From Lachnospiraceae bacterium (lineage in GTDB: Bacteria > Bacillota > Clostridia > Lachnospirales > Lachnospiraceae), in contig JAKSPC010000019.1 in assembly GCA_024405155.1 (NCBI GenBank), forward strand, positions 1-41,327: a DNA stretch of 41,327 nt, given 5' to 3'. This document shows positions 11,339 to 39,564 of the stretch, piece by piece; the stretch's first letter is position 1; each line of letters begins with the position of its first letter. The notes under the pieces are model-generated. The model saw only the letters and a program-made list of their open reading frames with translations, searched no databases and had not been told where the DNA came from. The position numbers and the translations under genes were made by a program.

Positions 11339-11396
11339 GTGACGTATTTCCGTACGGAGTACGGAAATGGCTGATTGCGAAGCAAGCAGCTGTCAC
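11339..11396 (+). repeat. Intergenic palindromic element, minimal copy (gapA-pgk)
   Basis: GTGAC (11339-11343) and GTCAC (11392-11396) bound the unit. It contains a perfect hairpin ATTTCCGTAC/GTACGGAAAT (11346-11368) and then GGCTG-ATTGCGAAGCAAG-CAGC. The segment ATTGCGAAGCAAGCAG matches the two conserved motifs of the other six elements joined without their inner stem. This is the weakest family member, and its relation to the rest is inference. Confidence 0.45.
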
Positions 11397-11474
11397 TTGT
11401 ACAGGAGCTTGAAGGAGACTCTCCATGAGCATGAAGCGAAGCGGAATGCGAATGGAAGCCAAAAGCAGCAAAAC

Positions 11475-11508
11475 AAAAAAGGCTCAGCCCTATGGGCCGG
11501 GCCTTTTT
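11475..11508 (+). terminator. Terminator between gapA and pgk
   Basis: AAAAAGGC with inner GCCC pairs with GGGC and GGCCTTTTT (11501-11508 on the T side). It lies only 20 bases before the pgk start codon and overlaps its ribosome-site leader. This suggests that gapA is mostly monocistronic, or that pgk expression is set by readthrough. Confidence 0.7.
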
Positions 11509-11528
11509 CTTACAAAAGGAGAAAACAA

Positions 11529-12770
11529 ATGGCAAAACTTAATAAGAAATCCGTAGACGACATCGACGTAAAGGGAAAGAAAGTTCTGGTTAGATGCGAC
11601 TTCAACGTTCCCATGAAGGAAGGCAAGATCACCGATGACAACCGTATCACCGCAGCTCTTCCCACCATCCAGAAGCTCATCGACAGCGGCGCAAAGGTCA
11701 TCCTCTGCTCCCACATGGGAAAGCCCAAGGGAGAAGTAAAGCCCGAGCTCACTCTGGCACCCGTGGCAAAGAGACTTTCCGAGCTTCTCGGCAAGGAAGT
11801 AAAGTTTGCAGCCGATAACGAAGTAGTTGGCGAAAACGCAAAGAAGGCAGCTGCTGAAATGAAAGACGGCGATGTGGTCCTTCTTGAGAACACCCGTTTC
11901 AGAAAAGAAGAGGAGCTTAAGTGCAAGACTCCCGAAGAGACCGAAGCTTTCAACGCATTCTGCAAGGACCTGGCTGCTCTTACCGACGGCTTCTTCGTAA
12001 TGGACGCTTTCGGAACCGCACACAGAAGACATGCGACCACCGCAGGTGTGGCTGACTTCGTAAAGAACTCTGCAGTAGGTTATCTGATGCAGAAGGAGAT
12101 CCAGTTCCTCGGAAACGCCGTAGAAGCTCCCGAGAGACCCTTCGTAGCCATCCTTGGCGGCGCAAAGGTAGCTGACAAGCTGAACGTTATCTCCAACCTT
12201 CTGGAAAAGTGCGACACCCTCATCATCGGCGGCGGCATGGCTTACACCTTCGTAAAGGCACAGGGATTTGAGATCGGTACCTCTCTCTGCGATGACGAAA
12301 AGCTGGACTACTGCAAGGAAATGCTGGAGAAGGCAAAGAAGCTTGGAAAGAAGCTCCTTCTTCCCGTAGATGCCGTTACCACCGCTTCCTTCCCGGATCC
12401 CATCGATGCTCCCATTGAGACCGAAGTTTACGACATCGACAAGATGCCTGCAGACAGAATGGGTATGGACATCGGACCCAGGACCAGAGAACTCTTCGCG
12501 GCAGAAGTAAAGAGCGCCAGGACCGTTGTATGGAACGGACCCATGGGCGTATTCGAGAATCCGCTCCTGGCAAAGGGCACCTATGCAGTTGCTGAAGCAC
12601 TGGCAGAGACCGATGCCGTGACCGTTATCGGCGGCGGTGACTCCGCAGCAGCTATCAAGAAACTTGGCTTCGCAGACAAGATGACCCACATCTCCACCGG
12701 CGGCGGCGCATCCCTCGAATACCTCGAAGGCAAGAAAATGCCCGGCGTGGAAGCTATACAGGAGAAATAA
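11529..12770 (+). CDS. pgk: Phosphoglycerate kinase
   Basis: It transfers phosphate from 1,3-bisphosphoglycerate to ADP, making ATP in glycolysis. The 413-residue product starts [27 protein letters not shown] precedes the ATG at 11529. The same frame is open upstream through the terminator, but that part is not protein-like. Motifs are [58 protein letters not shown] and IGGGDSAAA. The C-terminal [19 protein letters not shown] is intact. Codon use is of the highly expressed type seen in gapA. Confidence 0.97.
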
Positions 12771-12780
12771 AAAAATTTGA

Positions 12781-12934
12781 GCGCGGGTGGATTGCGGCGC
12801 AAGGCGTCCGGGGGACGCCTGTTATGCGCCGACCGGAGCGGAGCGTAGACTGTGCGTGCTTCGAGGCGAGTTTCGAGCGAAGCGAGAGCTGTTTGAGCTC
12901 TCGAACACGCACCGAAGCATGGTACCGCCCGCGC
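12781..12934 (+). repeat. Intergenic palindromic element (pgk-tpiA), TGGTACC subclass
   Basis: Outer arms GCGCGGG (12781-12787) and CCCGCGC (12928-12934) pair. Conserved motifs are TGGATTGCGGCGC (12788-12800) and CCGAAGCATGGTACCG (from 12912). Between them are two strong private hairpins: GGCGCA plus AGGCGTCC pairing with GGACGCCT plus TGCGCC, and GTGCGTG-TTCGAG pairing with CTCGAA-CACGCAC. The element starts 10 bases after the pgk stop and ends 6 bases before the GAGGAG of tpiA. Confidence 0.75.
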
Positions 12935-12950
12935 AAATGAGGAGTATTTT

Positions 12951-13694
12951 ATGAGACGAAGAATCATTGCCGGCAACTGGAAGATGAACAAGACCCCCAC
13001 CGAAGCCGTCGCACTCTGCGAGCTTCTTAAGGACCTTGTGAAGAATGACGCCGTAGACGTAGTATACTGCGTGCCCGCCATCGACATCATTCCGGTAGTA
13101 AATGCCGTAAAAGGAACCAATGTACAGGTAGGCGCCGAAGACATCTCCTTTGAAGACAAGGGCGCTTTCACCGGTCAGATCTCAGCGGAAATGCTGGTGG
13201 ATGCCGGTGTGAAATATGCCATCATGGGTCATTCCGAGAGAAGAGAGTATAACCACGAGACCAACGAGGACGTGAACAAGAAAGTCCTCAAGGCTCTGGA
13301 AAACGGGATCACCCCCATCATGTGCTGCGGCGAATCTCTTGCACAGAGAGAGCAGGGCATCACCATCGACTGGATCCGTCAGCAGGTAAAGGTCGGCTTC
13401 CAGGGCGTGACCGCAGAGCAGGCAGCAAAGAGCGTCATCGCTTATGAGCCCATCTGGGCCATCGGCACCGGTCTTACCGCTACCGCAGAGCAGGCGGAAG
13501 AAGTCTGCAAGGCCATCCGTGACTGCATCGCAGAGATCTACGGCACCGATACTGCCGAAAAGATCCGCATCCAGTACGGCGGCTCCATGAACGCGAAAAA
13601 CGCAGCCGAGCTTCTGGCACAGCCCGATATCGACGGCGGCCTCATCGGCGGCGCAGCTTTAAAGGCTGACTTTGGTCAGATCGTAAACGCATAA
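12951..13694 (+). CDS. tpiA: Triosephosphate isomerase
   Basis: It interconverts dihydroxyacetone phosphate and glyceraldehyde-3-phosphate. The 247-residue product starts [15 protein letters not shown], where the asparagine and lysine are active-site residues. The catalytic histidine region [10 protein letters not shown], the catalytic glutamate in [11 protein letters not shown], and the phosphate-binding [14 protein letters not shown] and [10 protein letters not shown] are all present. GAGGAG precedes the ATG. It completes the glycolytic trio, separated from pgk only by the palindromic element. Confidence 0.97.
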
Positions 13695-13704
13695 AGAAAA
13701 CTAC

Positions 13705-13831
13705 AGAAGCGATGCGACGTATGTCCGGCTCGCCGGCAGACGGATGCGACGGCCTTGCGGAGAAAACAAAATCCGGAGCAACCAGCCAAGCATACGACTG
13801 CGGGTGAGACGGGAAATGTCACATCGCTTCT
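13705..13831 (+). repeat. Intergenic palindromic element (tpiA-CPBP), ACCAGC subclass
   Basis: The arms AGAAGCGATGCGAC (13705-13718) and GTCACATCGCTTCT (13818-13831) pair at 13 of 14 positions, with a second helix CGTATG/CATACG inside. The conserved motifs CTTGCGGAG (13754-13762) and CGGAGCAACCAGCC (from 13774) are separated by only about 11 bases here. The larger copies have a 100-base inner hairpin in that position. A side hairpin CCGGC/GCCGG lies in the left half. Confidence 0.7.
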
Positions 13832-13851
13832 CATTTTATCGAGGTGTCCAT

Positions 13852-14859
13852 ATGTTCGGAAAAAAGAAAAATAAAGAGCCCCGCCCGGCGAACCGCCGCC
13901 ATCGGATCCTGGATCATCCGATCCTTTCCGTCTTCATGTTTGACCTGCTGAACATCTTTCTGACGGCGATCGTGCAGATCATCATTGACCCGTCCGCTCG
14001 GCAGAGCAGCGGAAACACGGATCTGGCCGCAGCGGTACAGCAGGCGCCGGATGCCAACCCGATGATCTACGTGGCGCAGATCATCACCGGCGTGCTGATG
14101 CTGCTTCTGTTCCGGTTCTGGTTCCGGAAAGACAGAAATCATTTCACCTATAAAGCGGAAAAGGGAAAGATCAGAGAAGGTTTCCTGCTCGGCCTGCCGC
14201 TTCTTACCACGGCAGTGATGAATCTCCTTGGCGGAGAGCTGGTGAACACCCCCAGGATGATCCTTCTTGCGCTCCTCATGGGATTCACTCCCGGGTTTGT
14301 GGAAGAAGTGACCAATCGCATCCTTCCCGTGGCAAACCTTATGCGTGTGTGGAAGGACCCGAAAAAGATCCCTGCGGTGATCACCGTCACAGGTGCCGTT
14401 TTCGGTCTTATCCATCTGACCAATCTCCTGGTGGGGGCAAGCCCTCTGCTAACGATCCTGCAGGTGGTCTTTGCCTTTGGCGCGGGTGCCCTGTTTGCCG
14501 CCGTGTATTTAAGGACCGGCTCCATGCTTGGCATTATCGTGTATCATACGGTCATTGACTTTACTGCGTTTTTAAATGCCTCCCTCTATGAGACCGGCGG
14601 CGTTCTGACCCAGACCACCGAGATCCCGGCGGAAGCCATCGTTCTGGAACTTGGCCGCGGCGTTTTGTTTGCGGCGTTCGCGTACTTCTACGTGCGTCCG
14701 TCGAAGCGGGCGGAGATCCGAAGGATCTGGGATGCCAAATGGAACATAAAACCGGAGGACGAACTGCCTGAACCTGCGGAAGAAGCTGAAATAGTATTGG
14801 ACGAGGCAGATCTGGAGAAAGTCTCCGGTGGTATAAAGATCACGCAGGAACTGACGTAA
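13852..14859 (+). CDS. CPBP family intramembrane protease with C-terminal GG-leader-like tail
   Basis: The 335-residue integral membrane protein has about seven hydrophobic segments. CPBP (Rce1/Abi) motifs are present in order: EEVTNR (two glutamates and arginine), FGLIHLTN (histidine) and YHTVIDF (second histidine). Family members cleave prenylated proteins or peptides, or protect against bacteriocins; the substrate here is unknown. The start at 13852 has GAGG seven bases upstream; the frame is open further up but through the palindromic element. The last residues LDEADLEKVSGG plus eight more match the double-glycine leader consensus (L-12, D-8, L-7, V-4, G-2, G-1), which is odd at a C-terminus. 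The HAD gene follows by 26 bases. Confidence 0.85.
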   Translation: MFGKKKNKEPRPANRRHRILDHPILSVFMFDLLNIFLTAIVQIIIDPSARQSSGNTDLAAAVQQAPDANPMIYVAQIITGVLMLLLFRFWFRKDRNHFTYKAEKGKIREGFLLGLPLLTTAVMNLLGGELVNTPRMILLALLMGFTPGFVEEVTNRILPVANLMRVWKDPKKIPAVITVTGAVFGLIHLTNLLVGASPLLTILQVVFAFGAGALFAAVYLRTGSMLGIIVYHTVIDFTAFLNASLYETGGVLTQTTEIPAEAIVLELGRGVLFAAFAYFYVRPSKRAEIRRIWDAKWNIKPEDELPEPAEEAEIVLDEADLEKVSGGIKITQELT

Positions 14860-14885
14860 TGCTCACGTAAAGGGGGGCCGGAACC

Positions 14886-15941
14886 ATGAAAAAGCAGAAC
14901 AAAGTTATCCTTCTGATACTTGCTGTATGCCTGCTGCTGATCGCGGGAGGCCTGATCGTATTCAGGCATTCAAAGAATGACTTTCAATACTGGACGCCGG
15001 GAGCAGGATCGCTGACGGAACTGCAGGAATATGTGGAGGATGTGACGCGGCCCGGTTCCGAGAACTTCATTCCGAAGGAGGACCGTATTGCGGTCTTTGA
15101 TATGGACGGGACTCTGTACGGTGAAAAAGCTCCCATATATGTAGAATGGTGGATGTTTGCATACCGTGTTCTGGAGGACCCCTCTTATCAGGCATCCGAA
15201 GAACTCGTCTCCGTCGCCAATGAAATCGTGGAAGCAGCTGAAACCGGGATCATTCCCGATGATCTGGAAAAGAAGCATGCCATTGCCAATGCGAAAGCGT
15301 TTGCGGGCATGACCATCGGTGAATACAAGGACTATGTCAATTCATTTTGCCTGAGAGAAGCAAAAGGTTTTACCGGTCTGAAATACTGCGAAGCATGGTA
15401 TCTTCCCATGCTGGAAGTGATCGATTATCTGAACAGGCATGATTTTACGGTATATATGTGCAGCGGCACCGACCGGTTTTTGTGCAGAGCCCTGGCTGAG
15501 GGAATGGCAGATATCCCGGAACGGCAGATCATAGGCATGGATTCCCTGTGCGTTGCCAGCGGACAGGGAGAAACGGACGGGCTGGATTATGTGTATACAG
15601 CCAATGATGATGTCGTGCGGACGGAGCATCTGATCATCAAAAATGTAAAAGCAAACAAGGTGTCCCAGATCATTCAGGAGATCGGTGCGAAACCGGTCCT
15701 GTCTTTTGGAAACAGCAGCGGCGATTTCAGCATGGCAATGTATACCACTGCAGGCAATCCATATAAGAGCATGGCATTCATGGTCGTAGCCGATGATACC
15801 GAACGGGAATTCGGCAATGCAGAAAAAGCGCAGCAACTGCGTGCCAAATGGGAATCCAACGGATGGACACCCATATCCATGAAAAACGACTGGACGACCA
15901 TATATGGAAAAAATGTGATCAAAGATGCCGGGAGTCAGTGA
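14886..15941 (+). CDS. Membrane-anchored HAD-family phosphatase
   Basis: The product is 351 residues. Residues about 7-27 (VILLILAVCLLLIAGGLIVF) form a single N-terminal membrane segment, so the catalytic domain probably faces outside. HAD motif I is FDMDGTLYGE with both aspartates, motif II is probably YMCSGTD, and motif IV-like residues are in SFGNSSGDFSMA. The cap region is helical. The substrate is unknown, though phosphoserine-phosphatase-like folds fit best. AAAGGGGGG precedes the ATG. Base composition is visibly more AT-rich than its neighbours (many ATA and TAT codons), hinting at a different history. Probably co-transcribed with the CPBP gene. Confidence 0.8.
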   Translation: MKKQNKVILLILAVCLLLIAGGLIVFRHSKNDFQYWTPGAGSLTELQEYVEDVTRPGSENFIPKEDRIAVFDMDGTLYGEKAPIYVEWWMFAYRVLEDPSYQASEELVSVANEIVEAAETGIIPDDLEKKHAIANAKAFAGMTIGEYKDYVNSFCLREAKGFTGLKYCEAWYLPMLEVIDYLNRHDFTVYMCSGTDRFLCRALAEGMADIPERQIIGMDSLCVASGQGETDGLDYVYTANDDVVRTEHLIIKNVKANKVSQIIQEIGAKPVLSFGNSSGDFSMAMYTTAGNPYKSMAFMVVADDTEREFGNAEKAQQLRAKWESNGWTPISMKNDWTTIYGKNVIKDAGSQ

Positions 15942-16032
15942 ATGCTGAGAGAACGATGTACAGGACACAGGAGGTGCCGGAAAAACGGTAAAAAAATCTG
16001 GTTTACATAAAACACAATATCTTGTGTTTCTC

Positions 16033-16061
16033 TTTACAACACACTACATATATGGTACTAT
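16033..16061 (+). promoter_or_regulatory. Promoter of tRNA-Arg and downstream genes
   Basis: TTTACA (16033-16038) and TACTAT (16056-16061) are 17 bases apart. The predicted start at about 16067-16069 falls inside the left arm of the terminator hairpin that begins at 16062, so promoter output and upstream termination share sequence. Confidence 0.7.
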
Positions 16062-16099
16062 AACAGCGCACGCCAAAGACGGTGAGCGCTGTTTTTTTT
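16062..16099 (+). terminator. Terminator overlapping the tRNA-Arg promoter
   Basis: AACAGCGC (16062-16069) pairs with GCGCTGTT (16086-16093), followed by six more T. It would end transcripts from the HAD gene. Transcripts from the adjacent promoter start within the left arm, so they would lack most of it and escape termination. Confidence 0.75.
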
Positions 16100-16111
16100 G
16101 GCGGTGCGGAG

Positions 16112-16183
16112 GTCCCTATAGTATAAAGGATAGAACGATAGCCTCCGGAGCTGTAGATAGCGGTTCGATTCCGCTTGGGGACG
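16112..16183 (+). tRNA. tRNA-Arg(CCG)
   Basis: The acceptor stem GTCCCTA pairs with TGGGGAC (one wobble), with discriminator G at 16183. The anticodon stem ATAGC/GCTGT encloses loop CTCCGGA, anticodon CCG, reading CGG. The T-arm AGCGG-TTCGATT-CCGCT is perfect. The D-arm GTAT/GAAC has one mismatch, and the D-loop AAAGGATA is typical. CCA is not encoded. It lies in the leader of the metallophosphoesterase gene and ends 17 bases before that start codon, so the two are probably processed from one transcript. Confidence 0.88.
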
Positions 16184-16200
16184 TTTGGAAAGGAGAGCAG

Positions 16201-17091
16201 ATGCCGATATTCGCTGCGGTCATCATGATCCTGATCGCTCTGTTTCTTCTGGAGAGCGAAATGGAAAAGCTTAGGCTCACTACCTGTGAGTACCACCTGA
16301 CGACGACGAAGCCTGTACGACTTACCGTCGTTTTTCTTTCTGACCTGCACGATTATCTGCCGGCGCGCCACGATGTGAAGAAGATCACGGATGCGGTGGA
16401 TGCGGCACATCCGGATGTTATCTTTCTGGGCGGCGACATGATCACCGTGTCAAAGTACCGGAAAAATCCCGTGCCGGAGACGAAAGCGGCTTTGGAGCTT
16501 ATCCGTCTTCTTGCAGAAAAATACCCGGTCTGTTATGCCGAAGGAAACCATGAGGCCAGATTCGCGCAGAAAGATCCGGAGGGTTACCGGGCTTATGTGG
16601 AAGAAGTAAAGAAGCTGGGCGTCCGTTACCTGGTGCAGGAGGGCACGGAGGCTGCGCCGCACGCGGAAGTCTATGGCATCACCCTGCCGGAAGAATGCTT
16701 TCAGTCTCTGCTGTTTAAACAGAAAGAGACCGTTCATCTGCCGGAAGGATTTCTGGAGAACATGCTGCCAAAAGGCGGGCGGGAGGAAGAAATGTACCGC
16801 ATCGGCCTCATTCACAGTCCCCGGTACTTAAACGATGCGGCCAAAGCGGGATTTGATCTGGTGCTCTCCGGGCATTTTCACGGCGGAACTGTCCGCCTGC
16901 CGGACGGAAGCGGGCTCATGACGCCTCAATACCAGTTTTTCGTGAAGGAATGCTCCGGCACTTTTACCAAAGAAAATACCACCATGATCGTTAACCGCGG
17001 CCTTGGCACCCACAGCATAAAGATCCGCTTTAATGACATTCCGGAAGTGAGTGTGATAAAAATTGAGGGAACCCATCACCTACAGGCTTGA
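16201..17091 (+). CDS. Membrane-anchored metallophosphoesterase (YkuE/YaeI-like)
   Basis: The product is 296 residues with an N-terminal membrane segment (IFAAVIMILIALFLL). A calcineurin-like catalytic domain carries the metal ligands in FLSDLHDYL, FLGGDM, EGNHE, IGLIHSP and LSGHFHGG. Relatives act on nucleotides, UDP-sugars or lipids at the membrane face; the substrate is not predictable here. The ATG at 16201 follows GGAAAGGAG. The frame is open upstream through the tRNA, which is not coding. The scpA gene begins inside its last 29 bases, so translation is coupled. Confidence 0.88.
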   Translation: MPIFAAVIMILIALFLLESEMEKLRLTTCEYHLTTTKPVRLTVVFLSDLHDYLPARHDVKKITDAVDAAHPDVIFLGGDMITVSKYRKNPVPETKAALELIRLLAEKYPVCYAEGNHEARFAQKDPEGYRAYVEEVKKLGVRYLVQEGTEAAPHAEVYGITLPEECFQSLLFKQKETVHLPEGFLENMLPKGGREEEMYRIGLIHSPRYLNDAAKAGFDLVLSGHFHGGTVRLPDGSGLMTPQYQFFVKECSGTFTKENTTMIVNRGLGTHSIKIRFNDIPEVSVIKIEGTHHLQA

Positions 17092-17860
17092 GACATTGGA
17101 TTTCGACGGTCCGCTGGATCTGCTCTTAAGCCTCATTGAGAAAAATAAATACAGCATTTTTGACATCCCCATTACGGAGATCACCCGCCAGTACCTGGAA
17201 TACGTGGAAAAGCTGAAAGAAAAGGACATGGACATCATCTCCGAATTCCTTCTTATGGCGGCAACGCTTCTGGAGATCAAGACAAAAATGCTCCTGCCCA
17301 GGGAAAAGGACGAACAGGGCGAAGAGATCGATCCCCGGAAAGAGCTTGTGGAACGGCTTATTCAGTATAAGAAATACCGCATGCTGGCGGATGAACTGGC
17401 AGATGCCGGCGACGAAGCAGCCCGTTTTGTCTATAAAGAGGAAACTCTTCCTGCGGAGGTGAAAGAGTACGTGCCGCCCATTGATCTGGATAAGTTCCTG
17501 AACGGTGTCACGGCGGAAAGCCTGGGCCGTATCCTGGAAGAAGTCCTGAAACGCAAGGAATACCGGGCGGATGCCGAGCGCGCCGATTTCGGCGTGATCA
17601 GAAAAGAACGGATGCCTCTGGGCCGCCGTATCAGGAGCCTGGTAAAGTACGCCCGGAAAAAGCGCACGTTTTCTTTTAAGGAAATGCTGGAGGCAAACTA
17701 CACCAGGGAAGATGTGGTGGTGTCATTTCTGGCCGTACTGGAACTTATGAAAATGGGCCGCATCGAGGCCGCGCAGAAGGATGACGGCGATATCGCACTT
17801 ACCGTAAAAGAGACCATCGATACCGACGATCTGGATCTGGAAGGGATCGTAGACGAATAA
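17063..17860 (+). CDS. scpA: Segregation and condensation protein A
   Basis: This is the kleisin subunit of the Smc-ScpAB condensin, which compacts and segregates the chromosome. The 265 residues include the signature LETLDFDGPLDLLLSLIEKNKYSIFDIPI and EFLLMAATLLEIKTKMLLP. A C-terminal winged-helix region follows (KRTFSFKEMLEANYTREDVVVSFLAVLELMKMG). No ATG is available. I take the TTG at 17063, which overlaps the preceding gene and has only a weak ribosome site; a TTG 11 codons later is less likely because it cuts into the conserved N-terminus. The stop overlaps the scpB start by one base. Confidence 0.92.
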   Translation: MREPITYRLETLDFDGPLDLLLSLIEKNKYSIFDIPITEITRQYLEYVEKLKEKDMDIISEFLLMAATLLEIKTKMLLPREKDEQGEEIDPRKELVERLIQYKKYRMLADELADAGDEAARFVYKEETLPAEVKEYVPPIDLDKFLNGVTAESLGRILEEVLKRKEYRADAERADFGVIRKERMPLGRRIRSLVKYARKKRTFSFKEMLEANYTREDVVVSFLAVLELMKMGRIEAAQKDDGDIALTVKETIDTDDLDLEGIVDE

Positions 17861-18465: not shown

Positions 18466-18468
18466 ACC

Positions 18469-18909
18469 ATGGAAAAAGTAACGCTGAAGATCAAATACCA
18501 TACCGACGCCATCGAAAAACTGGCCTACATCGACGGAAAATCCGACTGGATCGATCTGAGGGCAGCCAGACGCTACGAGCTCAAAAAAGGCGACTGGCAG
18601 CTTATCGACCTGGGCGTATCCATCGCATTGCCGGAAGGCTATGAGGCCCACGTGGTGCCCAGAAGTTCCACCTACCGCACCTGGGGCCTTCTGCAGACCA
18701 ACTCCTGCGGCGTCATCGACAACACCTACAGCGGTGACGGCGACGTGTGGATGGTGCCCATGCTGGCCACCCGCGACACCGTAGTGGAAGTGGGAGACCG
18801 CATCTGCCAGTTCCGCATCATGAAAAACCAGCCGCAGATCATCTTCGATGAAGTGGAGCATCTGGATGGCATAAACCGCGGCGGCTTCGGAACTACGGGA
18901 AGAAAGTGA
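18469..18909 (+). CDS. dut: dUTP diphosphatase (dUTPase)
   Basis: It hydrolyses dUTP to dUMP, keeping uracil out of DNA and feeding dTMP synthesis. The 146 residues carry trimeric dUTPase motifs: LRAARRYELKKGDWQLIDLGV, HVVPRSSTY, TNSCGVIDNTYSGDGDVWMVP, GDRICQFRI and the C-terminal NRGGFGTTGRK that closes over the active site. The usual aspartate of motif III is present in GVIDNTY. Its start lies three bases after scpB with no clear ribosome site, so translation is probably coupled. It precedes nrdD, another deoxynucleotide gene. Confidence 0.93.
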   Translation: MEKVTLKIKYHTDAIEKLAYIDGKSDWIDLRAARRYELKKGDWQLIDLGVSIALPEGYEAHVVPRSSTYRTWGLLQTNSCGVIDNTYSGDGDVWMVPMLATRDTVVEVGDRICQFRIMKNQPQIIFDEVEHLDGINRGGFGTTGRK

Positions 18910-18914
18910 TTCAT

Positions 18915-19100
18915 AAGCCGTGTTTCGGTATCTGGGCGAAAGCGCATTGCGGAGGCTTTTCAGATTTTCAAGGTTTCCGAGCCCGTAAAGCAGAGGTCCT
19001 TGAGCGAAGCGAGTGGCACCCTCTGCGGGGGCGCAGGAAAGCTTAGAAAATCGAAAAACGGAGCAACCAGCGCGCTCGGACAGATACCGAGACGCGGCTT
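18915..19100 (+). repeat. Intergenic palindromic element (dut-nrdD), ACCAGC subclass
   Basis: The arms AAGCCGTGTTTCGGTATCTG (18915-18934) and its complement at 19081-19100 differ at only two of 20 positions. Conserved motifs are ATTGCGGAGG (18946-18955) and CGGAGCAACCAGC (19059-19071). The inner core of about 100 bases (CTTTTCAGATTTTC ... GAAAATCGAAAA) is nearly identical in the copies at 29683 and 39382 and is itself partly self-complementary. It starts six bases after the dut stop. Confidence 0.8.
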
Positions 19101-19104
19101 ACAA

Positions 19105-19120
19105 ACACAACATCTAGTAT
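19105..19120 (+). promoter_or_regulatory. Candidate NrdR box
   Basis: ACACAACATCTAGTAT resembles the 16-base NrdR box (consensus close to ACACWATATATWGTGT): the central C, A, A, T, T, A and G positions fit. NrdR represses ribonucleotide reductase genes when dATP is high. A second box, common in pairs, is not obvious. Confidence 0.5.
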
Positions 19121-19142
19121 TTAAGAAAAAAGTTCGGTAATA

Positions 19143-19174: not shown

Positions 19175-19249
19175 AAACACTGCGCGCCCCGCACGAAAGA
19201 CCTGCATATAGAAAGCGCATTCATTATCGGTGAGTATGAGGAGCAGACT

Positions 19250-21655: not shown

Positions 21656-21671
21656 TTACAGTTTCATAACA

Positions 21672-21767
21672 GCGCCGGTGGATTGCGACGCGTGAGTGCT
21701 TTGCACCGAGTAGCAGCTTGCTGCTCCCGAAGGTGCAAACACTCACCGAGCATGGTACCGCCGGCGC
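21672..21767 (+). repeat. Intergenic palindromic element (nrdD-trxB), TGGTACC subclass
   Basis: The outer arms GCGCCGG (21672-21678) and CCGGCGC (21761-21767) pair. Conserved motifs are TGGATTGCGACGC and CCGAGCATGGTACCG. The private inner hairpin GTGAGTG-TTTGCACC/GGTGCAAA-CACTCAC, topped by GTAGCAGC/GCTGCT, differs wholly from that of the 12781 copy. The central outer pair is C-G here and G-C there, a compensatory change. Confidence 0.75.
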
Positions 21768-29682: not shown

Positions 29683-29885
29683 CATACAGCGCCGGCTGCG
29701 CTCCGACACGTGACAGAAAGCGCATTGCGGAGGCTTTTCAGATTTTCAAGTTTTTCAAGCCCGTAAAGCAGGGTCCACGAGCGAAGCGAGATGGCACCCC
29801 TGCGGGGGCGATGAAAAACTTCAGAAAATCGAAAACCGGAGCAACCAGCGCGCTCTGGCACATGACGGAACGCAGCAAGCGTATG
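29683..29885 (+). repeat. Intergenic palindromic element (permease-plsC), ACCAGC subclass
   Basis: It begins at the first base after the permease stop codon and ends six bases before the AGGAG of plsC. Arms CATAC/GTATG and TGCGCTCCGACACGTGACAG pair imperfectly with CTGGCACATGACGGAACGCA. Motifs are ATTGCGGAGG (about 29723) and CGGAGCAACCAGCGC (about 29837). The inner core of about 100 bases closely matches the copies at 18915 and 39382, while the arms do not. Confidence 0.8.
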
Positions 29886-29902
29886 GTCATAGGAGTATAG
29901 TT

Positions 29903-32461: not shown

Positions 32462-32483
32462 CGCCCTCCGGCACAATGGCTTC

Positions 32484-34853
32484 ATGACAGACAGAAAGCA
32501 GAAAACGAAGAGAAGAGCGATTGCCGCGATCCTGGCGGCTTTTTTCGGTGTGCTTTCCGCATTCGTTTCCTTTGCCGGGGAGCCGGAACTTACCGTTACC
32601 TACGGGTATAAGAACATCGCCCGTTCCGGCATGCTCCTTCCCGTGGAAGTGAAGGTGGACGTGCCTTCGGAGACGCTTTCCGGCGGCTTTGCCGTGGTGG
32701 AGATCCCCGGAGGCTCCGGAAACATCAGCTTTACCGCTCCCGTGGAGATCATCTCCGGGACCGGCACCGTCCGGTTCGTGGTAACGATCCCCTACGGTCA
32801 TGCAGGCGCAGAGGGTACCGCGGACCGTCTGGTGGTCCACTTTTTAAATGAAGACGGCGAGGAACTTGCCGTAAAAGACGTTGCCGTGACCTACCGCGGC
32901 AGCGGGAAAGACGCGTTTCTGGGGCTGGTCTCCCTGGATCCCAGGGAACTTTCCTGGCTGGATCACATCAATCTCACCGAAGAGATCGCCACCCGTACGG
33001 CGGTGCTCTCCGTGGGAGATCTGCCGGACAGCGCGGCGGGGCTGAGCCAGCTGGACCTTATGGTGATCTCCGGCGTATCCGCCGGTGACATCCCGGAAAG
33101 CTCCCTGCGTGCAGTCTCGGAGTGGGTACGGGACGGCGGCACGCTGATCCTGGGGACAGGTGCCGCGGAAGACCCCTTCGGTATTCTTTCGGCAATTACC
33201 GGCTTTACCGCCGTGGGCCTTCCGGAGATCCGCGACGTGGACCTGGGCATGCAGTATTCCGTTTCCGGGCCTGACGGCGCGGTGCGGACGCTGGTGGTAC
33301 GCCAGGTGGAATGTCCGGACGCGGAAATTTTGTATGAAACGGAAGATCTGCCGGTGTGGAGCCGGCTGAATCTTGGCAGCGGCAGCATCCTGGTGACGGC
33401 CTATGACCTGTGTGACCTGAACGCTTTCGGCACGGAGCATCCGGATTACGCCGCAGATCTTTTTGCGGCGGCGCTGGGGCGGACCGGCCTCAGGGCACTG
33501 TCCCGCAGTACCCTGTCCGGCAGGGAGCGGCAGGAGAGCATTGCCGGACTTACCAATTACTTTACGGGAGGACTGAAGGACCGCATGGCCGTCTACGCGG
33601 TCATCGCCGTGTGGTATCTGGCCATTGCCGGCGGCGTACTGTATCTGTTCCTCAAGAAAAAAGGCCTGAGCCTGTACTATTCTCTGGGTGTCATCGCCTG
33701 CGCCATTATCGGCGGTTTCGTGATCTGGTTCGTCTCCGCAAAGACACGGATCGAAAAGCCCTACATCAATTACGCGGCCTGCGTGGAAACGAAAAACGGA
33801 GAGGCCGGCGCGGATACCACCCTGTTTCTGGACGTGCGCCGTCCGGATCTTATGCCCATTACCCTGTCCGCGCCCCAGGAAATGACCTTCCTTCCGGAAG
33901 ACGCTTCCGGAAACGTATCCATTTCCTGCGGAAAGACCAAGATGCTGGCCATCACCGGGCAGAAGCAGTTTGACAGGAACCTTTATACCGTAAGCGGCAG
34001 AGAGTACACGGAGACCGCGCCGCTTCAGCTGCTGGCGGAAGCCGGCGCCGACGGCGTCACGGTATCCGTCCGGAACGGTTCGGAAGAGACCCTGCATGAT
34101 GCCTTTGCCCTGTGTTACGACAGGATGTATCTGTTCGGCGACGTGGGACCGGGAGAAATGGCAAAGGCACAGGAAGTGCGGTACTGCCCCACGGCCATGT
34201 CCGCAGTGATCGCGGACCGGGTACTCTCCGACACAGCCCTTCCCGGAAGGGAGCAGAAGTCGGCGCTTCTTAGATACGTGCTGGAGAAAAAGTGCGGCGG
34301 TTATTTCGATACGGCGATCCTGTTTGCTTTCGCGGAAAACGCCCCCGGCCTTCTCACCGGTACCGGTTATGATCTGAACGGATCTTTGGTACGGGTATAC
34401 GACGCCGGGGACACGGCGGGTCTTGGCGGCGGTTTCCAAAAAAGCGTGCTGGCCCAGACGCCGGCAGTCATTTCAGGCAGCTACGACCCGGCGACCAACA
34501 CGGTTGCCAGCGGCGGGCAGACGGTGATCGAATATTACCTGGGATCGGAAGAAAAGATCGCGGGCCTTAAGATGCATCCCCTTTCCGGGGACATGGTCAC
34601 GGAGGACCTGGCTCCTTTTGCCGGGCAGATGGCCGTTTACAATTATCAGAAGAGCACCTACGAACCGGTGAGCACCGAAAAGACGGAGTACGGACCGGAC
34701 GAGATCGCGGCATGGCTTTCTCCGTCAAACAGCTGCCTCATCCGCTACACCCCGGGAGGAGACCCGGACAGCGGTGAACGGATGTTCCTGCCGGTGCCGG
34801 AGATCATTGCCGGAAACACGCCGGCGGCAGAAGAAGCGGGAGGGCCGGACTGA
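32484..34853 (+). CDS. Large exported membrane protein of an envelope ABC module
   Basis: The product is 789 residues from the ATG at 32484, giving a basic start and the signal-like AIAAILAAFFGVLSAFVSFAG. An ATG 45 bases earlier is possible. The N-terminal half looks beta-rich and exported, and includes DLMVISGVSAGDIPESSLRAV then EWVRDGGTLILGTG, a GATase-like fold also found in Gld-type and related ABC-associated proteins. Two membrane segments (about 380-430: YAVIAVWYLAIAGGVLYLF and SLGVIACAIIGGFVIWFV) precede a second exported domain. No specific family is recognised. Its stop overlaps the ABC ATPase start, so it acts with that transporter. Confidence 0.75.
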   Translation: MTDRKQKTKRRAIAAILAAFFGVLSAFVSFAGEPELTVTYGYKNIARSGMLLPVEVKVDVPSETLSGGFAVVEIPGGSGNISFTAPVEIISGTGTVRFVVTIPYGHAGAEGTADRLVVHFLNEDGEELAVKDVAVTYRGSGKDAFLGLVSLDPRELSWLDHINLTEEIATRTAVLSVGDLPDSAAGLSQLDLMVISGVSAGDIPESSLRAVSEWVRDGGTLILGTGAAEDPFGILSAITGFTAVGLPEIRDVDLGMQYSVSGPDGAVRTLVVRQVECPDAEILYETEDLPVWSRLNLGSGSILVTAYDLCDLNAFGTEHPDYAADLFAAALGRTGLRALSRSTLSGRERQESIAGLTNYFTGGLKDRMAVYAVIAVWYLAIAGGVLYLFLKKKGLSLYYSLGVIACAIIGGFVIWFVSAKTRIEKPYINYAACVETKNGEAGADTTLFLDVRRPDLMPITLSAPQEMTFLPEDASGNVSISCGKTKMLAITGQKQFDRNLYTVSGREYTETAPLQLLAEAGADGVTVSVRNGSEETLHDAFALCYDRMYLFGDVGPGEMAKAQEVRYCPTAMSAVIADRVLSDTALPGREQKSALLRYVLEKKCGGYFDTAILFAFAENAPGLLTGTGYDLNGSLVRVYDAGDTAGLGGGFQKSVLAQTPAVISGSYDPATNTVASGGQTVIEYYLGSEEKIAGLKMHPLSGDMVTEDLAPFAGQMAVYNYQKSTYEPVSTEKTEYGPDEIAAWLSPSNSCLIRYTPGGDPDSGERMFLPVPEIIAGNTPAAEEAGGPD

Positions 34854-35806
34854 TGCTGGAACTTCGTAACGTCACAAAGATCTACGGCACGGAACCGGCG
34901 CTGTCCGATCTATCCCTTACCATAGGGGACGGCGCGCTGTATGGTTTCGTGGGGCCCAACGGTGCCGGGAAGACCACGGCCATCCGCATCATGGCGGGGC
35001 TTCTGCACCCGGACGCGGGGGAGGTGCTGTTTGCGGGAAGACCCGTGGCAGGCGGCAGGGAGCTTATTAAGAATACCGGCTACATCCCGGACTCCCTGGG
35101 GATCTACCGGAACCTGAAAGTCAGCGAATACATGGAATTTTTCGCTTCCTGCGCAGGGCTGGAGGGGCTGGAGGCAAGGCGCCGCATTGAGGAACTGCTT
35201 TCCGACGTAGACCTTACGGACCGGGAAGACTATTTCGTGGAAGCCCTTTCCCGGGGCATGAAACAGCGGCTTTCCCTGGCCAGGGCACTGATCTCCGATC
35301 CGCCCATGCTCCTTATGGACGAACCCACGTCGGGCCTTGACCCCGGCACCCGCTATGAGTTCAAGAAACTGGTGAGCGGCCTTTCCGACAGAGGAAAGAC
35401 CATCGTCATTTCCTCCCACATCCTTTCGGATATCAGCGAGATCTGTTCCGACGTGGCCATCATCGACCAGGGAAAGATCGTGATCTCCGGCCGCTTAAGC
35501 GACGTTATGAACCGTGTGACGGCGGGAAACCCCATCGTCATCTCCGTGGACAGAGACGTGACGAAGGCCGTAAAACTGCTGAAGGAAGAGCCGCGGACAG
35601 AATCGGTGACCGTGCGGGGAAACGACATCCTCATATCGTTTTCCGGTTTTCCTGACGAAGAAGCGGTACTTCTCAAAAAACTGGTGGATGCGGGGATCCC
35701 CGTGCGCAGCTTTGCCAGACAGAAAGGTTCTCTGGAATCCATCTTCATGCAGCTTACCGGCGGGCACGACCGTCTGATCGCGTCCTCTGACGATTACAAT
35801 GAGTAG
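34853..35806 (+). CDS. ABC transporter ATP-binding protein
   Basis: The 317-residue ATPase has Walker A GPNGAGKTT, signature LSRGMKQRLSLARAL (LSRGM rather than LSGGQ, common in ABC-2 exporters), Walker B LLMDEPTSGLDP and switch histidine in ISSHILSD. The C-terminal extension of about 90 residues is typical of GldA/NatA-type ATPases that pair with ABC-2 permeases. It overlaps the upstream gene by three bases and the permease gene downstream by eight. The substrate is unknown. Confidence 0.92.
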   Translation: MLELRNVTKIYGTEPALSDLSLTIGDGALYGFVGPNGAGKTTAIRIMAGLLHPDAGEVLFAGRPVAGGRELIKNTGYIPDSLGIYRNLKVSEYMEFFASCAGLEGLEARRRIEELLSDVDLTDREDYFVEALSRGMKQRLSLARALISDPPMLLMDEPTSGLDPGTRYEFKKLVSGLSDRGKTIVISSHILSDISEICSDVAIIDQGKIVISGRLSDVMNRVTAGNPIVISVDRDVTKAVKLLKEEPRTESVTVRGNDILISFSGFPDEEAVLLKKLVDAGIPVRSFARQKGSLESIFMQLTGGHDRLIASSDDYNE

Positions 35807-36632
35807 AGCAAAAGGCATCATAAATCCCATAACGGCCAAGGAAGTCAAGGTGACGCTCCGGGGGCATTCCCTCCCGGTGCTGGTCATCGTGGTGAACCTG
35901 ATCCTTTTTCTGGCGGGATTGCTGGGCGTATACGGAAGGGCTTCCGGCATGGAGCTTTCCGGGCAGGCGGACTACCGTCAGTTTCTGTACGTCTACGCGG
36001 CCCTGGTGGGGATCCTTTCCGTCATCGTGCTCATCCTGGGCTGCAGCATTGCCTCGGGAAGCATTTCCGGCGAGCGGGAGACCGGCACCTATGACCTTCT
36101 GAAAAGCGCGGGGCTGTCGCCTCTGGCCATCGCCGGCGGAAAACTGTTTTCCGCGGCTCACATTTCCCTTTCTGTGATCGCCTCCGCGTTCCCGGCACTG
36201 CTTATCCCGCTGGTATTCGGCGGACCGGGTCTCATGGAAGTGTTTCAGATCATCGGAGCGCTGGTCCCGCTGGCGCTGTTTTCCATCACGGTGGGGCTGT
36301 ATTTCAGTTCCGTCCTGCATTCCACGGTGGCGGCCGCGGCGGTATCCGCAGGAACGGTGTTTGCCTTTGCCGCCGTTCCCGTACTGCTTGTTATGTTTGT
36401 CTGGCCGGCAGCCGGCAACGCATACCTGATGCTGGCGGATCCCCTGACACCGGTGGCGTCCCTGGTACTTAAGCAGATCGGAGAGGGCAGCCTGGTGACG
36501 GAAGCCTTCGCCCGTATGGGCATCGCCCCCGCCTCTTTCCTGTCCCGCAGCCTGACGGCACTGTCCTTTGCCGTCCAGGCCGCGATTTCGCTCTTGTTTT
36601 TTATCTTATCAGTAGGTAAGATATCCGAGTGA
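35799..36632 (+). CDS. ABC-2 type transporter permease
   Basis: The 277-residue membrane protein has about six hydrophobic segments. The N-terminal ITAKEVKVTLRGHSLPVLVIVVNLILFLAGLLGVYG and the cytoplasmic loop ISGERETGTYDLLKSAGLSPLAIAGGKLFSA are characteristic of GldF/ABC-2 permeases. The loop after the second segment contacts the ATPase. It completes a three-gene module with 32484 and 34853, likely an envelope-linked exporter. It lies seven bases before murG. Confidence 0.88.
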   Translation: MSRAKGIINPITAKEVKVTLRGHSLPVLVIVVNLILFLAGLLGVYGRASGMELSGQADYRQFLYVYAALVGILSVIVLILGCSIASGSISGERETGTYDLLKSAGLSPLAIAGGKLFSAAHISLSVIASAFPALLIPLVFGGPGLMEVFQIIGALVPLALFSITVGLYFSSVLHSTVAAAAVSAGTVFAFAAVPVLLVMFVWPAAGNAYLMLADPLTPVASLVLKQIGEGSLVTEAFARMGIAPASFLSRSLTALSFAVQAAISLLFFILSVGKISE

Positions 36633-36639
36633 GGCACTT

Positions 36640-37725
36640 ATGAAAACTGACAAAACGAAAAAAAAGATCATTCTCACGGGCGGCGGTACCGCCGGCCACG
36701 TGACCCCCAACATGGCGCTCCTGCCAAAGCTTCGTGACGATGGCTGGGAGATCCTCTATATCGGTTCCAAAACGGGGATCGAAAAAGACATCTGTGAAAA
36801 GAACGGTGTGGACTACGTTGGCATCTCCTCCGGCAAACTGCGCCGGTACATAGATCCCAAAAACCTGTCCGACCCCTTCCGCGTGATCAAAGGCTACGCG
36901 GAGGCGTCCTCTGTCATCAGAAAATTCAGACCCGACGTGGTATTCTCCAAGGGCGGCTTCGTGGCTGTTCCCGTGGTGGCGGCAGCGGCGGCTCACGGCG
37001 TTCCCGTGATCTCCCATGAATCCGACATGACCCCGGGCCTGGCAAACCGCCTGGCAGCTCCCTTCTCAAAAAAGATCTGCTGCAACTTCCCGGAAACGGC
37101 AGAGCTTCTGCCGAAGGGAAAAGGCGTGGTGTCCGGCAGTCCCATCCGGACAGCTTTACTTGAGGGAAGCCGGGAGGAAGGCCTGAGGCTTGCCGGTTTT
37201 GACGGAAAGAAGCCCGTGATCCTGGTGATCGGCGGCTCCCTGGGTGCGCAGTGCATCAATGCATGCATCCGCTCCATCCTGGACCGGTTGCTGAAAACCT
37301 ATGACATCATCCACATCTGCGGCAAGGGAAACCTGGCGGAAGACCTTTCCGACCGGAAAGGCTACCGGCAGTACACCTTCGTGAATGACGAACTGCCGCA
37401 CCTTTTTGCAGCGGCCGATCTGTTCGTATCCCGCGCCGGCGCCAACGCCATATGCGAGATCCTGGCCATGCAGAAGCCCAATCTGCTCATTCCCCTTTCC
37501 CTGGCAGCCAGCCGTGGGGACCAGATACTGAACGCCCGTTCCTTCGAGAAACAGGGATTCTCCAGGGTCCTCATGGAAGAGGAAATGACGGAAGAAACGC
37601 TTTTGCAGTCCATCAACGGGCTTTTCGCGGACAGGGAGACCTACGTGGAAGCCATGAAAAGATCACAGATGAACGACGGTGTGAAAGTGATCACCGGCCT
37701 CATCGGAGAGATCAGCGGAAAGTAA
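36640..37725 (+). CDS. murG: UDP-GlcNAc:lipid I N-acetylglucosaminyltransferase
   Basis: It converts lipid I to lipid II at the cytoplasmic membrane face in peptidoglycan synthesis. The 361 residues show GGGTAGHVTPNMALLPKL at the N-terminus, SKGGFVAVPVVAAA, HESDMTPGLANRL, the nucleotide-binding VIGGSLGAQCINACI and SRAGANAICEILAMQKPNLLIPL. All are intact. GAGG precedes the ATG. It lies outside a dcw cluster, which is unusual for cocci and bacilli but common in Lachnospiraceae. It follows an envelope ABC module and precedes the ECF genes. Confidence 0.96.
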   Translation: MKTDKTKKKIILTGGGTAGHVTPNMALLPKLRDDGWEILYIGSKTGIEKDICEKNGVDYVGISSGKLRRYIDPKNLSDPFRVIKGYAEASSVIRKFRPDVVFSKGGFVAVPVVAAAAAHGVPVISHESDMTPGLANRLAAPFSKKICCNFPETAELLPKGKGVVSGSPIRTALLEGSREEGLRLAGFDGKKPVILVIGGSLGAQCINACIRSILDRLLKTYDIIHICGKGNLAEDLSDRKGYRQYTFVNDELPHLFAAADLFVSRAGANAICEILAMQKPNLLIPLSLAASRGDQILNARSFEKQGFSRVLMEEEMTEETLLQSINGLFADRETYVEAMKRSQMNDGVKVITGLIGEISGK

Positions 37726-37728
37726 CAA

Positions 37729-38580
37729 ATGAACATCATCGAAGCCATCAAACTGAATTTTGACTATGTGAACCGTGAGGAGAGCGACGGCACCGAAACG
37801 GTGGTCCACGCCCTTTCCGACCTGGATCTTACCATAGAAAAGGGCTCTTTCGTGTGCATCCTGGGCCACAACGGTTCGGGAAAAAGCACCTTTGCCCGTC
37901 TCATCAACGGTCTCAACCTTCCCACGGAGGGGACCATCCTGGTAAGCGGCATGGATACGAAGGAGGAGGAAAAGCTCCTTGCCATCCGTGAGACCGCCGG
38001 CATGGTCTTCCAGAATCCGGACAACCAGATCATTGCCAACGTGGTGGAAGAGGACGTGGCTTTCGGCCCGGAAAACATGGGCGTGCCCCAGGCGGAACTG
38101 GAGACGCGGGTGACGAAGGCTCTGGAAAACGTATCCATGACCGCCTACCGCTACCGTTCCCCCAACCGCCTGTCCGGCGGCCAGAAGCAGCGGGTAGCCA
38201 TTGCCGGCGTCATGGCCATGAAGCCGGAGTGCATCGTGCTGGATGAACCCACCGCCATGCTGGATCCCACGGGGCGGGAAGATGTTTTAAAGACCGTGCA
38301 TGAGCTGAACAGACAGGACGGCATCACCATCGTGCTCATCACCCACTACATGGAAGAAGCGGTGGACGCGGACCGGGTCATCGTCATGGATCACGGCAGG
38401 GTGGCCATGGACGGCACCCCGGTGGAGATCTTCGGCAGAGTGGAGGAACTCAAGAAACTGTCCCTTTCCGTGCCGGTCATGACGGAACTTGCCTTTGAAT
38501 TAAAGAAAGCAGGACTTTCCATTCCCGAGGGTGTACTCAGGGAGGAAGAACTGGTGGAAGCGATCCTTAAGAACAGATAA
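37729..38580 (+). CDS. ecfA1: ECF transporter ATPase A1
   Basis: One of two ATPases of the energy-coupling-factor module that powers vitamin and metal uptake through exchangeable S proteins. The 283 residues have Walker A GHNGSGKSTFARL, the Q-loop in VFQNPDNQIIANVVEEDVAFGPENMG, signature LSGGQKQRVAIAGVMA, Walker B IVLDEPTAMLDP, and the switch histidine in ITHYMEEA. The ATG follows GGAAAG three bases after the murG stop. Assigned A1 by order and by its IIANVVEEDVAFGPEN segment. Confidence 0.93.
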   Translation: MNIIEAIKLNFDYVNREESDGTETVVHALSDLDLTIEKGSFVCILGHNGSGKSTFARLINGLNLPTEGTILVSGMDTKEEEKLLAIRETAGMVFQNPDNQIIANVVEEDVAFGPENMGVPQAELETRVTKALENVSMTAYRYRSPNRLSGGQKQRVAIAGVMAMKPECIVLDEPTAMLDPTGREDVLKTVHELNRQDGITIVLITHYMEEAVDADRVIVMDHGRVAMDGTPVEIFGRVEELKKLSLSVPVMTELAFELKKAGLSIPEGVLREEELVEAILKNR

Positions 38581-38591
38581 GTAACTTTAGC

Positions 38592-39380
38592 ATGCGTGAA
38601 ATAACACTTGGACAATATTATCCGGCCGATTCGGTGCTGCACCGGCTCGACCCCAGAACGAAACTGGCGGGTACGCTCGTTTTCCTGATCTCTCTTTTCA
38701 TTGCGAAGGGATTTCCGGGATATGCGGTCGCCACCGTATTTCTTGCTGCCGTGATCATTATGAGCAAGGTCCCCCTTTCCTTTATCGTAAGGGGATTGAA
38801 AGCCATCGTGATCCTGCTTCTGATCTCGGTATCCTTTAACATCTTCCTCACCGACGGAACGCCCATCTTTACCCTGGGGCCCTTAAAGGCGACCAGAGAA
38901 GGCCTGAACCTGGCACTTTTCATGGGAGTCCGCCTGATCTACCTGGTGATCGGTTCCAGCATCCTCACCCTCACCACCACGCCCAACCAGCTGACGGACG
39001 GTCTGGAAAAAAGCCTGGGATTCTTAAAGAAGATCGGTGTGCCGGTCCACGAGATCGCCATGATGATGAGCATCGCCCTTCGGTTCATTCCCATCCTCAC
39101 GGAGGAAACGGACAAGATCATGAAGGCACAGATGGCCCGCGGCGCGGATTTCGAAAGCGGCGGCATCATAAAGAAGGCAAAAGCCATGATCCCGCTTCTG
39201 GTCCCGCTGTTCATCTCGGCATTCCGGAGAGCCGGTGATCTGGCCATGGCCATGGAAGCAAGATGCTACCACGGCGGCGAGGGCCGCACAAAGCTCCGTC
39301 CGCTGCACTACGAACGCCGCGACGTGATCGCGTACATCATCCTGGCAGTATATTTTGTGTTAATGATAATTATGAAGTAA
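38592..39380 (+). CDS. ecfT: ECF transporter transmembrane coupling protein
   Basis: This is the membrane scaffold that links the two ATPases to the S subunit. The 262-residue protein has about five membrane helices and long cytoplasmic coupling helices. These carry two Ala-Arg-Gly-type signatures, QMARGADFESGG and MAMEARCYHGGEGRTKL. The N-terminal LGQYYPADSVLHRLDPRTKLAGTL is characteristic. The ribosome site is weak. It is followed by a palindromic element rather than by truA. Confidence 0.93.
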   Translation: MREITLGQYYPADSVLHRLDPRTKLAGTLVFLISLFIAKGFPGYAVATVFLAAVIIMSKVPLSFIVRGLKAIVILLLISVSFNIFLTDGTPIFTLGPLKATREGLNLALFMGVRLIYLVIGSSILTLTTTPNQLTDGLEKSLGFLKKIGVPVHEIAMMMSIALRFIPILTEETDKIMKAQMARGADFESGGIIKKAKAMIPLLVPLFISAFRRAGDLAMAMEARCYHGGEGRTKLRPLHYERRDVIAYIILAVYFVLMIIMK

Positions 39381-39381
39381 G

Positions 39382-39564
39382 CGCAGTGTGCGGAGGCATA
39401 CCTGCCGCACTGCTGCTCCATTTTTCGATTTTCTAAGTTTTTCTGCGCCCCCGCAGAGGGTGCCAATCGCTTCGCTCAAGGACCTCTGCTTTACGGGCTC
39501 GAAAAACTTGAAAATCTGAAAAGCCTCCGCAATGTGCTTGCATTTATGCCTCTGCACACTGCAC
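39382..39564 (-). repeat. Intergenic palindromic element (ecfT-ecfA2), inverted copy
   Basis: It reads in the opposite orientation to the other copies. The arms GCAGTGTGCGGAGGCATA and TATGCCTCTGCACACTGC (right end near 39564) pair at 17-18 positions. On the minus strand the motifs are ATTGCGGAGG (about 39536-39527) and TGGAGCAGCAG near 39420, a variant of GGAGCAACCAG. The inner core of about 100 bases matches the 18915 and 29683 copies. It begins one base after the ecfT stop. Confidence 0.8.

Follow-up and report, generated by a model that had tools for sequence, protein, structure and literature searches.

Two families of dispersed hairpin repeats with conserved cores and locus-specific, self-complementary arms in a Lachnospiraceae genome

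The window analysed here, that is, the whole 41,327-nt stretch of contig JAKSPC010000019.1 of a Lachnospiraceae bacterium, carries long self-complementary elements between its genes, at positions 12781, 13705, 18915, 21672, 29683 and, on the minus strand, 39382. A preliminary description had grouped them, together with a seventh place at 11339, into one family defined by a shared pair of motifs and by paired arms unrelated between copies. The six elements are present, and the three that were folded as RNA are far more stable than shuffled sequences (z = -8.5 for 18914-19105, -5.7 for 12776-12940 and -6.5 for 13700-13835; 0/200 shuffles as good in each case). The grouping itself was wrong. The elements belong to two dispersed repeat families, here called A and B, plus one deleted A-like relative, and the common part of A and B is only TTGCG...GAGCA/GAAGCA at the inner junction.

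Three of the elements are family A copies. The first spans 18914..19101 on the plus strand, with outer arms at 18914-18934 and 19081-19101 around a conserved core at 18947-19065. The second (29684..29885, plus strand) has its core at about 29725-29843 and arms that include GCTGCG.TCCG and CGGA.CGCAGC, the ends being set by eye. The third (39383..39562, minus strand, core 39414-39532) is inserted in antisense, with cbiQ (ecfT) on one side and an ecfA-like ABC ATPase gene on the other. It is flanked by an 8-bp direct repeat, AATTATGA, whose left copy at 39368..39375 and right copy at 39576..39583 form a possible target-site duplication. A core of ~119 nt is common to the three copies, with identities to the 18915 copy of 94% and 87% over the matched part; this conserved core is a fact absent from the preliminary description.

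Family B is represented on the plus strand by an element between pgk and tpiA (12781..12934, arms GCGCGGG/CCCGCGC) and by another between nrdD and a pyridine-nucleotide-disulphide oxidoreductase gene (21672..21767, arms GCGCCGG/CCGGCGC). The compensatory exchange between these two pairs of arms, noted earlier, is real. The 12781 element contains an extra module, GGCGTCC..GGACGCC..GACCGGAGCGGAGCGTAGA, which is also found inside the A copies at loci L023 and L024. More generally, an inner module GRCGTCC..GGACGYC followed by GACCGRAGCGGAGCGTAGA, or part of it, was seen in both A and B copies (L023, L024, L078, L096, L105), with paired changes within its own stems. The B copy at L086 is 160 nt long where 91-93 nt is usual, its inner hairpin carrying a further palindromic insert.

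The element downstream of tpiA (13705..13831, plus strand) is an internally deleted relative of family A with the mini-core CTTGCGGAG..TCCGGAGCAACCAGC. A fuller relative lies at L083:2500-2680, and the two have TGCGACGGCCTTGCGGAG and AAAACAAAATCC.CAGCAACCAGCC in common; by eye their inner arms are alike and their outer arms are not. The place at 11339, once taken as a minimal version, lies in the gapA-pgk gap (11295..11508, plus strand), which holds small hairpins at 11295-11337 and 11346-11368 and the gap terminator at 11476-11508. The stretch 11284-11500 folds with z = -4.5, chiefly as several small separate hairpins. The place shows the motif pair only, and motif pairs within 187 nt occur 14 times on both strands of the window (seven at the originally described places and seven others) compared with 6.8 expected from 30 first-order shuffles. 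The motif pair by itself is thus near chance and does not qualify a place as a member, and 11339 was not accepted.

Both families extend over the whole source genome, which comprises 46 contigs and 2,027,948 bases (2.03 Mb). With the 18905-19110 element as query (blastn, E<=0.01), family A gave 34 matches, three elements having two rows each, which makes about 31 places. Family B (GGTGGATTGCG...CCGAAGCATGGTACCGC), searched with a typical B copy, gave 36 matches, one element having two rows, and thus about 35 places. All subsequent A counts are based on the 27 copies with both core ends among the fetched loci; L019, where the pattern failed, and three short unfetched matches were left out. The B set consists of 29 copies with both ends, those without either end pattern being dropped. 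The search of relatives, proposed together with that of the source genome, was less productive. Neither core was found in the 24 congeners (E<=1e-4 for A, E<=0.01 for B), and the source genome was the sole match among 61 genomes for A (itself, 24 congeners and 36 more distant genomes) and among 25 for B, in searches at the nucleotide level, which strongly diverged relatives would escape.

The arms of family A are complementary within copies and unrelated between them, as had been claimed. When each 5' arm was paired with all 27 3' arms, the duplex energy was -48.6 kcal/mol for the own partner and -28.1 kcal/mol for the others, and the own 3' arm ranked first in 23 of the 27 copies. The exceptions are L003 (2nd), L014 (5th), L028 (6th) and L017 (12th). 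L017 is the clearest of them, with a 5' arm that resembles B arms and fails to pair with the 3' arm; it is perhaps a recombinant. In a DNA-style alignment the own partner came first in 25/27 copies at 8-28 nt and in 14/27 at 20-60 nt. Further out the symmetry signal is absent (p = 0.51 at 30-70 nt, p = 0.16 at 40-80 nt), and we take the value at 50-90 nt (p = 0.024) as noise of the symmetry test. In family B the arms are complementary over at least 4 contiguous bp in all 29 copies, with a mean of 5.7 bp against 1.9 for cross pairings. The claim that arms differ between copies holds less well here, because GCGCG/CGCGC occurs in 13/29 copies and the rest are paired changes from it or terminator-like stems.

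Arms and cores were also compared. Loci L001 and L002 have an identical 119-nt core (100% over 132 nt) and differing arms. Among the 11 pairs of A copies with core identity of at least 0.95, the 5' arm identity is 0.68 at 0-9 nt from the core, 0.47 at 9-21 nt and 0.39 at 21-33 nt; among the 183 pairs with core identity below 0.75, the corresponding values are 0.69, 0.49 and 0.45. In all pairs the similarity of the arms fades outward and reaches background about 20 nt outside the core, and the inner positions that copies share are GCGC and CATG-like. Since arm identity is no higher for near-identical than for diverged cores, the arms were not copied along with the core, and the histories of core and arm are decoupled: core similarity is no predictor of arm similarity. 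The earlier argument that a copied selfish repeat would carry the same arms everywhere consequently fails, these being dispersed insertions whose arms are unrelated even at core identity of 95% or more. Arms unrelated beside near-identical cores are part of the life cycle of the repeat and no proof of an mRNA-leader motif. One conceivable process is that each copy, at or after insertion, would write its own arms by fold-back synthesis, core and stem evolving independently; we regard this as rather unlikely.

Covariation is strong in both families. For the A core, the structure was written from the sequences on an alignment of the 27 cores and compared with 500 shuffles. In this structure 93.3% of the cells are paired, and two-sided changes are present in 13 of 35 pairs and in 41 cells, where the shuffles gave 4.6 and 9.1 (0/500 as high); when the partner was slid by 1-3 columns, at most 54.4% of the cells were paired. 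The B analysis used the 22 standard-length copies (21 distinct). Here 98.0% of the stem cells are paired. Two-sided changes affect 15 of 34 pairs and 58 cells, where the shuffles gave 7.0 and 13.8 (again 0/500 as high). Four of five measures lie above all 500 shuffles in A and likewise in B. Further pair types number 25 against 20.2 in B (4/500 as high) and 23 against 22.0 in A (192/500 as high), so that in A they are not above the shuffles. Kinship alone can push sequences above shuffles, and a structure read from the sequences beats its own slid versions; the effect is nevertheless large, and the check by covariation that had been proposed therefore came out positive on most measures. A known Rfam RNA is rejected as the source of these structures: over the window only two tRNAs reach the gathering cut-off and none of the matches that do so lies on the elements, and the L001 element, scanned by itself, has 2 listed matches, the higher of which scores 13.7 bits against a cut-off of 40. 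In the part of the open-access literature covered by the terms used, no title or abstract start describes this family.

One rival way to account for such covariation is selection on RNA structure. The insertions would then be old and their transcribed hairpins functional, the arms would drift by compensatory mutation, and the cores would be homogenised by gene conversion. The dense pairing of the B stems and the covariation of both cores speak for this, and so does the retention of U-G at B columns 8/97 (18/22 copies) and 41/56 (21/21 copies with letters). The orientation of B relative to its neighbouring genes, counted from codon-scored open reading frames (ORFs), is a further point in favour: 16 of the 29 copies are sense, 3 antisense, 6 between convergent and 3 between divergent genes and 1 undetermined (binomial p = 0.004 for 16 to 3). 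One of the 16 is the copy at L095, which lies in frame inside a 398-aa ORF (L095 1103-2299, minus strand) whose residues 13-177 match Acyl_transf_3. Family A, however, is inserted equally in both orientations, with 11 sense, 10 antisense, 5 convergent and 1 divergent (binomial p = 1.0); a cruder ORF call gave 9, 6, 6 and 3, with 3 undecided.

The kinds of change also tell against this explanation in part. In B, the 58 cells changed on both sides stand against only 8 one-sided and 14 unpaired cells, and some of the two-sided exchanges, such as CG to AU and GC to CG, cannot be reached through G-U alone. If an RNA of the described strand were selected, G-U mismatches would be expected to exceed A-C mismatches, and the A arms show the reverse: in the confident part of the alignment (475 aligned pairs) there are 21 A-C, 8 G-U and 14 other mismatches (p = 0.024 for A-C against G-U), and in a looser alignment 45 A-C and 30 G-U. 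The asymmetry of 21 to 8 refers to the described strand; read on the complementary strand it would be an excess of G-U. The mismatches elsewhere are 20 G-U (11 at one position) and 8 A-C in the A core, and 43 G-U (39 at two fixed positions) and 1 A-C in B, a count with which an RNA role of B on the sense strand would be compatible. The few one-sided changes in B and the lack of a G-U excess in the A arms, together with arms that already differ beside near-identical cores, speak against selection on RNA structure, which we consider unlikely. The earlier proposal of a structured RNA in mRNA leaders is thus borne out in its covariation and, for B only, in a sense bias; it is not borne out in A, which has no orientation preference and, on the described strand, no G-U bias in its arms.

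We now turn to the relatives, where G000 denotes the source genome. The cbiQ-ecfA2 junction, which holds the 39382 element, was matched in 22/25 genomes; 20 loci were fetched, 19 of them from relatives, and cbiQ lies directly upstream of ecfA2 in 17. Going by the aligned ends, 15/17 relatives have a gap of at most about 100 nt, the genes overlapping in G017, and G000 has one of about 200 nt. The DUF1385-prmC junction (L098), with a B copy in G000, is matched in 24 relatives, of which 9 were read; with starts judged by eye, the genes overlap or lie 0-5 nt apart in 8/9. Two conserved operon junctions without room for an element in most relatives read indicate that the A and B elements are insertions, and the arms at these two junctions are probably not ancestral hairpins. 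In family A, direct repeats of at least 7 bp at 28-70 nt were found in 9/27 copies, where cross pairings gave 9.3% (p = 0.0005 in a one-sided binomial test; comparison of means p = 0.027), and these repeats may well be target-site duplications. At the other sites the comparison was less useful: for the terminators of pfp and of the gene neighbouring L025, the orthologous places in relatives have another neighbour or are too diverged, in G017 another ORF stands between the dUTPase and nrdD genes, and palindrome density in relatives gave too few events.

Some congeners seem to carry different hairpins at the same junctions (by eye; L050-L055 for the pgk-tpi gap, L194 for the cbiQ-ecfA2 gap). In the 10 of 24 relatives whose pgk-tpi gap was printed, there is almost no gap in G014 and hairpin-like sequence of other origin in several (by eye), and the cbiQ-ecfA2 gap of G010 seemingly has small hairpins of its own (by eye). 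These congeners may have their own lineage-specific hairpin repeats.

The tight junctions bear directly on the idea that the inner core behaves as a cassette, entering a terminator or another hairpin at its apex, the arms then being simply those of the target. Little or no room for such a hairpin exists at either junction in most relatives read, and the positions that arms share, GCGC and CATG-like, are unlike random targets. Four B copies do sit in terminator-looking stems (L079, with AAGCCCCCC/GGGGGGCTTTTT, L090, L094 and L096), runs of T or A occur beside A arms, and the shared module seems by eye to lie in the apical loop of the A copies L023 and L024. A GC-rich stem followed by a T run, as in a rho-independent terminator, is nevertheless not the rule: TTTT stands directly 3' of the arm in 4/27 A and 0/29 B copies, a count that misses T runs inside the arm (e.g. 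L079), and a minority of the elements is terminator-like. The pfp site decides nothing on the question, as the only ortholog at E<=1e-80, in G017, differs in both neighbour and terminator. Insertion into existing hairpins may have happened at some loci; as an explanation of the families we judge it improbable.

The arms could also arise at the moment of insertion, if the hairpin end primed synthesis on the target flank and each insertion created its own arms. Arms that are new DNA at tight junctions and independent of core identity would be expected from this, and in B the symmetry of the flanks extends slightly past the arms (own 5.53 against cross 4.87 at 8-40 nt, p = 0.004). The A flanks lack such symmetry in the two outer intervals given above (30-70 and 40-80 nt), the inner arms keep shared positions, and no enzyme was found in a search that covered Y1 transposases. 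We consider this the least likely of the explanations, and very doubtful.

The explanation that we put forward, tentatively and just short of calling it probable, is that A and B are mobile hairpins resembling miniature inverted-repeat transposable elements (MITEs), whose cores spread or are homogenised while the stems are rebuilt at each locus by fold-back template switching at the level of DNA. Non-coding repeats of this kind would have multiplied in the bacterial lineage. After or during insertion, the hairpin would favour fold-back template switching when the DNA is replicated, with one arm, or a flank, serving the nascent strand as template for the opposite arm. The arms would thereby be rewritten and lengthened in one step, the outermost part fastest, with complementarity kept; the cores would meanwhile spread, or recombination or renewed copying would make them alike across loci. 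That template switching can yield perfect hairpins and multibase compensation in a single event has been published (PMC8794818). The B hairpins, mostly sense within operons, may in addition to being mobile act in mRNA, as intercistronic hairpins affecting its processing or stability. The pattern is real and well supported; the mechanism of the stems is what we infer from it.

Several observations weigh against rewriting by template switching. No template-switch event was seen directly, and no closely related strain is among the genomes compared. Strong purifying selection, too, would leave few one-sided changes. The A core is less clean than B, its 41 two-sided cells being accompanied by 19 one-sided cells (11 of them in a single column) and 63 unpaired ones; two columns account for 31 of the unpaired cells and the outermost helix for 24. 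The missing G-U excess in the A arms rests on 29 mismatches, and an A-C excess is not predicted by a symmetric process. TTTT or AAAA stands beside the A arms on 6/54 sides compared with 0/54 further out (B: 3/58 and 1/58), which fits insertion into hairpins. Nor are the junctions tight in every relative: the cbiQ-ecfA2 gap is about 210 nt in G010 and about 140 nt in G014, and DUF1385 and prmC are about 97 nt apart in G014. The direct repeats of A (7-8 bp) lie at varying distances from the arms, and the B flanks give no direct-repeat signal (3/29 against 6.9% of cross pairings; means 5.03 own and 5.04 cross). Finally, no transposase could be tied to A or B in a search covering only Y1 transposases (PF01797), of which the genome has two (L140 and L141). 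A link to a transposase associated with repetitive extragenic palindromic (REP) sequences was looked for and not found, no A or B copy being seen in the 3.3-kb locus of L141.

The frame at L141 (1449-2214) is open over 255 residues, matches Y1 transposases, resembles REP-associated transposases and has its own imperfect 36-nt flanking inverted repeats. A phage or plasmid origin of the elements was rejected as far as tested. The exact patterns gave 0 stretches in viral contigs, and the 18905-19110 element had no match in plasmids and phages (blastn, E<=1e-5), a search limited to family A. An exact 20-mer of the A core gave 2 stretches across genome contigs, neither with the A 3' motif nearby (by eye). 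Elsewhere in the window, 65-518 and 4444-4897 are inverted relative to each other over 454 nt and 98% complementary; their ends are TTACTGTTCAGAG-like, and several ATGTGAGCC/GGCTCACAT hairpins lie inside. They seem to be the two copies of a further MITE-like element of greater length, and one copy adjoins a short ORF (4044-4433) that matches an IS605 OrfB helix-turn-helix.

In MITEs and mosaic repeats, a conserved terminal repeat is the rule. The A and B elements share with MITEs their short, non-coding, dispersed copies and their absence at conserved junctions of most relatives read; their outer arms are inverted repeats without conservation from copy to copy. The known bacterial MITEs and mosaic repeats, such as ERIC, BOX/RUP/SPRITE and Correia, are likewise short, non-coding, dispersed, mostly intergenic, nested and able to form hairpins (PMC10969869), and A and B differ from them in that the outermost stem varies at most sites and the core is conserved. 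REP sequences and bacterial interspersed mosaic elements (BIMEs) are also palindromic and extragenic and lie mostly between unidirectional or convergent genes (PMC3733652); only 1/27 A and 3/29 B copies lie between divergent genes. REPs are, however, 20-40 bp long with an unpaired GTAG/CGTC tag (PMC3733652), whereas A and B copies are mostly about 95-200 bp long and have GTAG or CGTC in only 5/27 A and 6/29 B flanks.

Rickettsia palindromic elements (RPEs) are palindromic repeats of about 150 bp that can lie in frame in genes (PMC10969869), as at L095. They differ in that only 1/29 B copies overlapped a scored ORF, and locus-specific arms do not appear in the part of the RPE description available to us. 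Stem-loop sequence (SLS) families resemble A and B as mostly intergenic repeats sharing a secondary structure, and the accessible portion of their description mentions no decoupled histories of core and arm (PMC2267715). Template-switch mutations can compensate several bases together and make a stem perfect within a single event; they were described, in what that source offers, for RNA genes, and here they would act on a dispersed repeat family (PMC8794818). A microbiome survey also notes palindromic candidate RNAs (PMC8040213). A dispersed hairpin repeat is thus of a known kind, and it is the decoupled, locus-specific stem that is unusual.

Covariation is commonly taken as proof of selected RNA structure. 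Here covarying stems occur in a mobile repeat with dozens of copies, and there are signs that the pairing in the A and B stems is kept or rewritten at the level of DNA. If template switching rebuilds the stems, the two families would be a test bed for the origin and upkeep of perfect hairpins and would call for caution in RNA discovery that relies on covariation. If each copy writes its own outer stem, the element would be a natural archive of the template switches that occurred in a bacterial genome. Should selection on RNA be the cause after all, A and B would represent a common, lineage-restricted intercistronic RNA element unmatched by Rfam.

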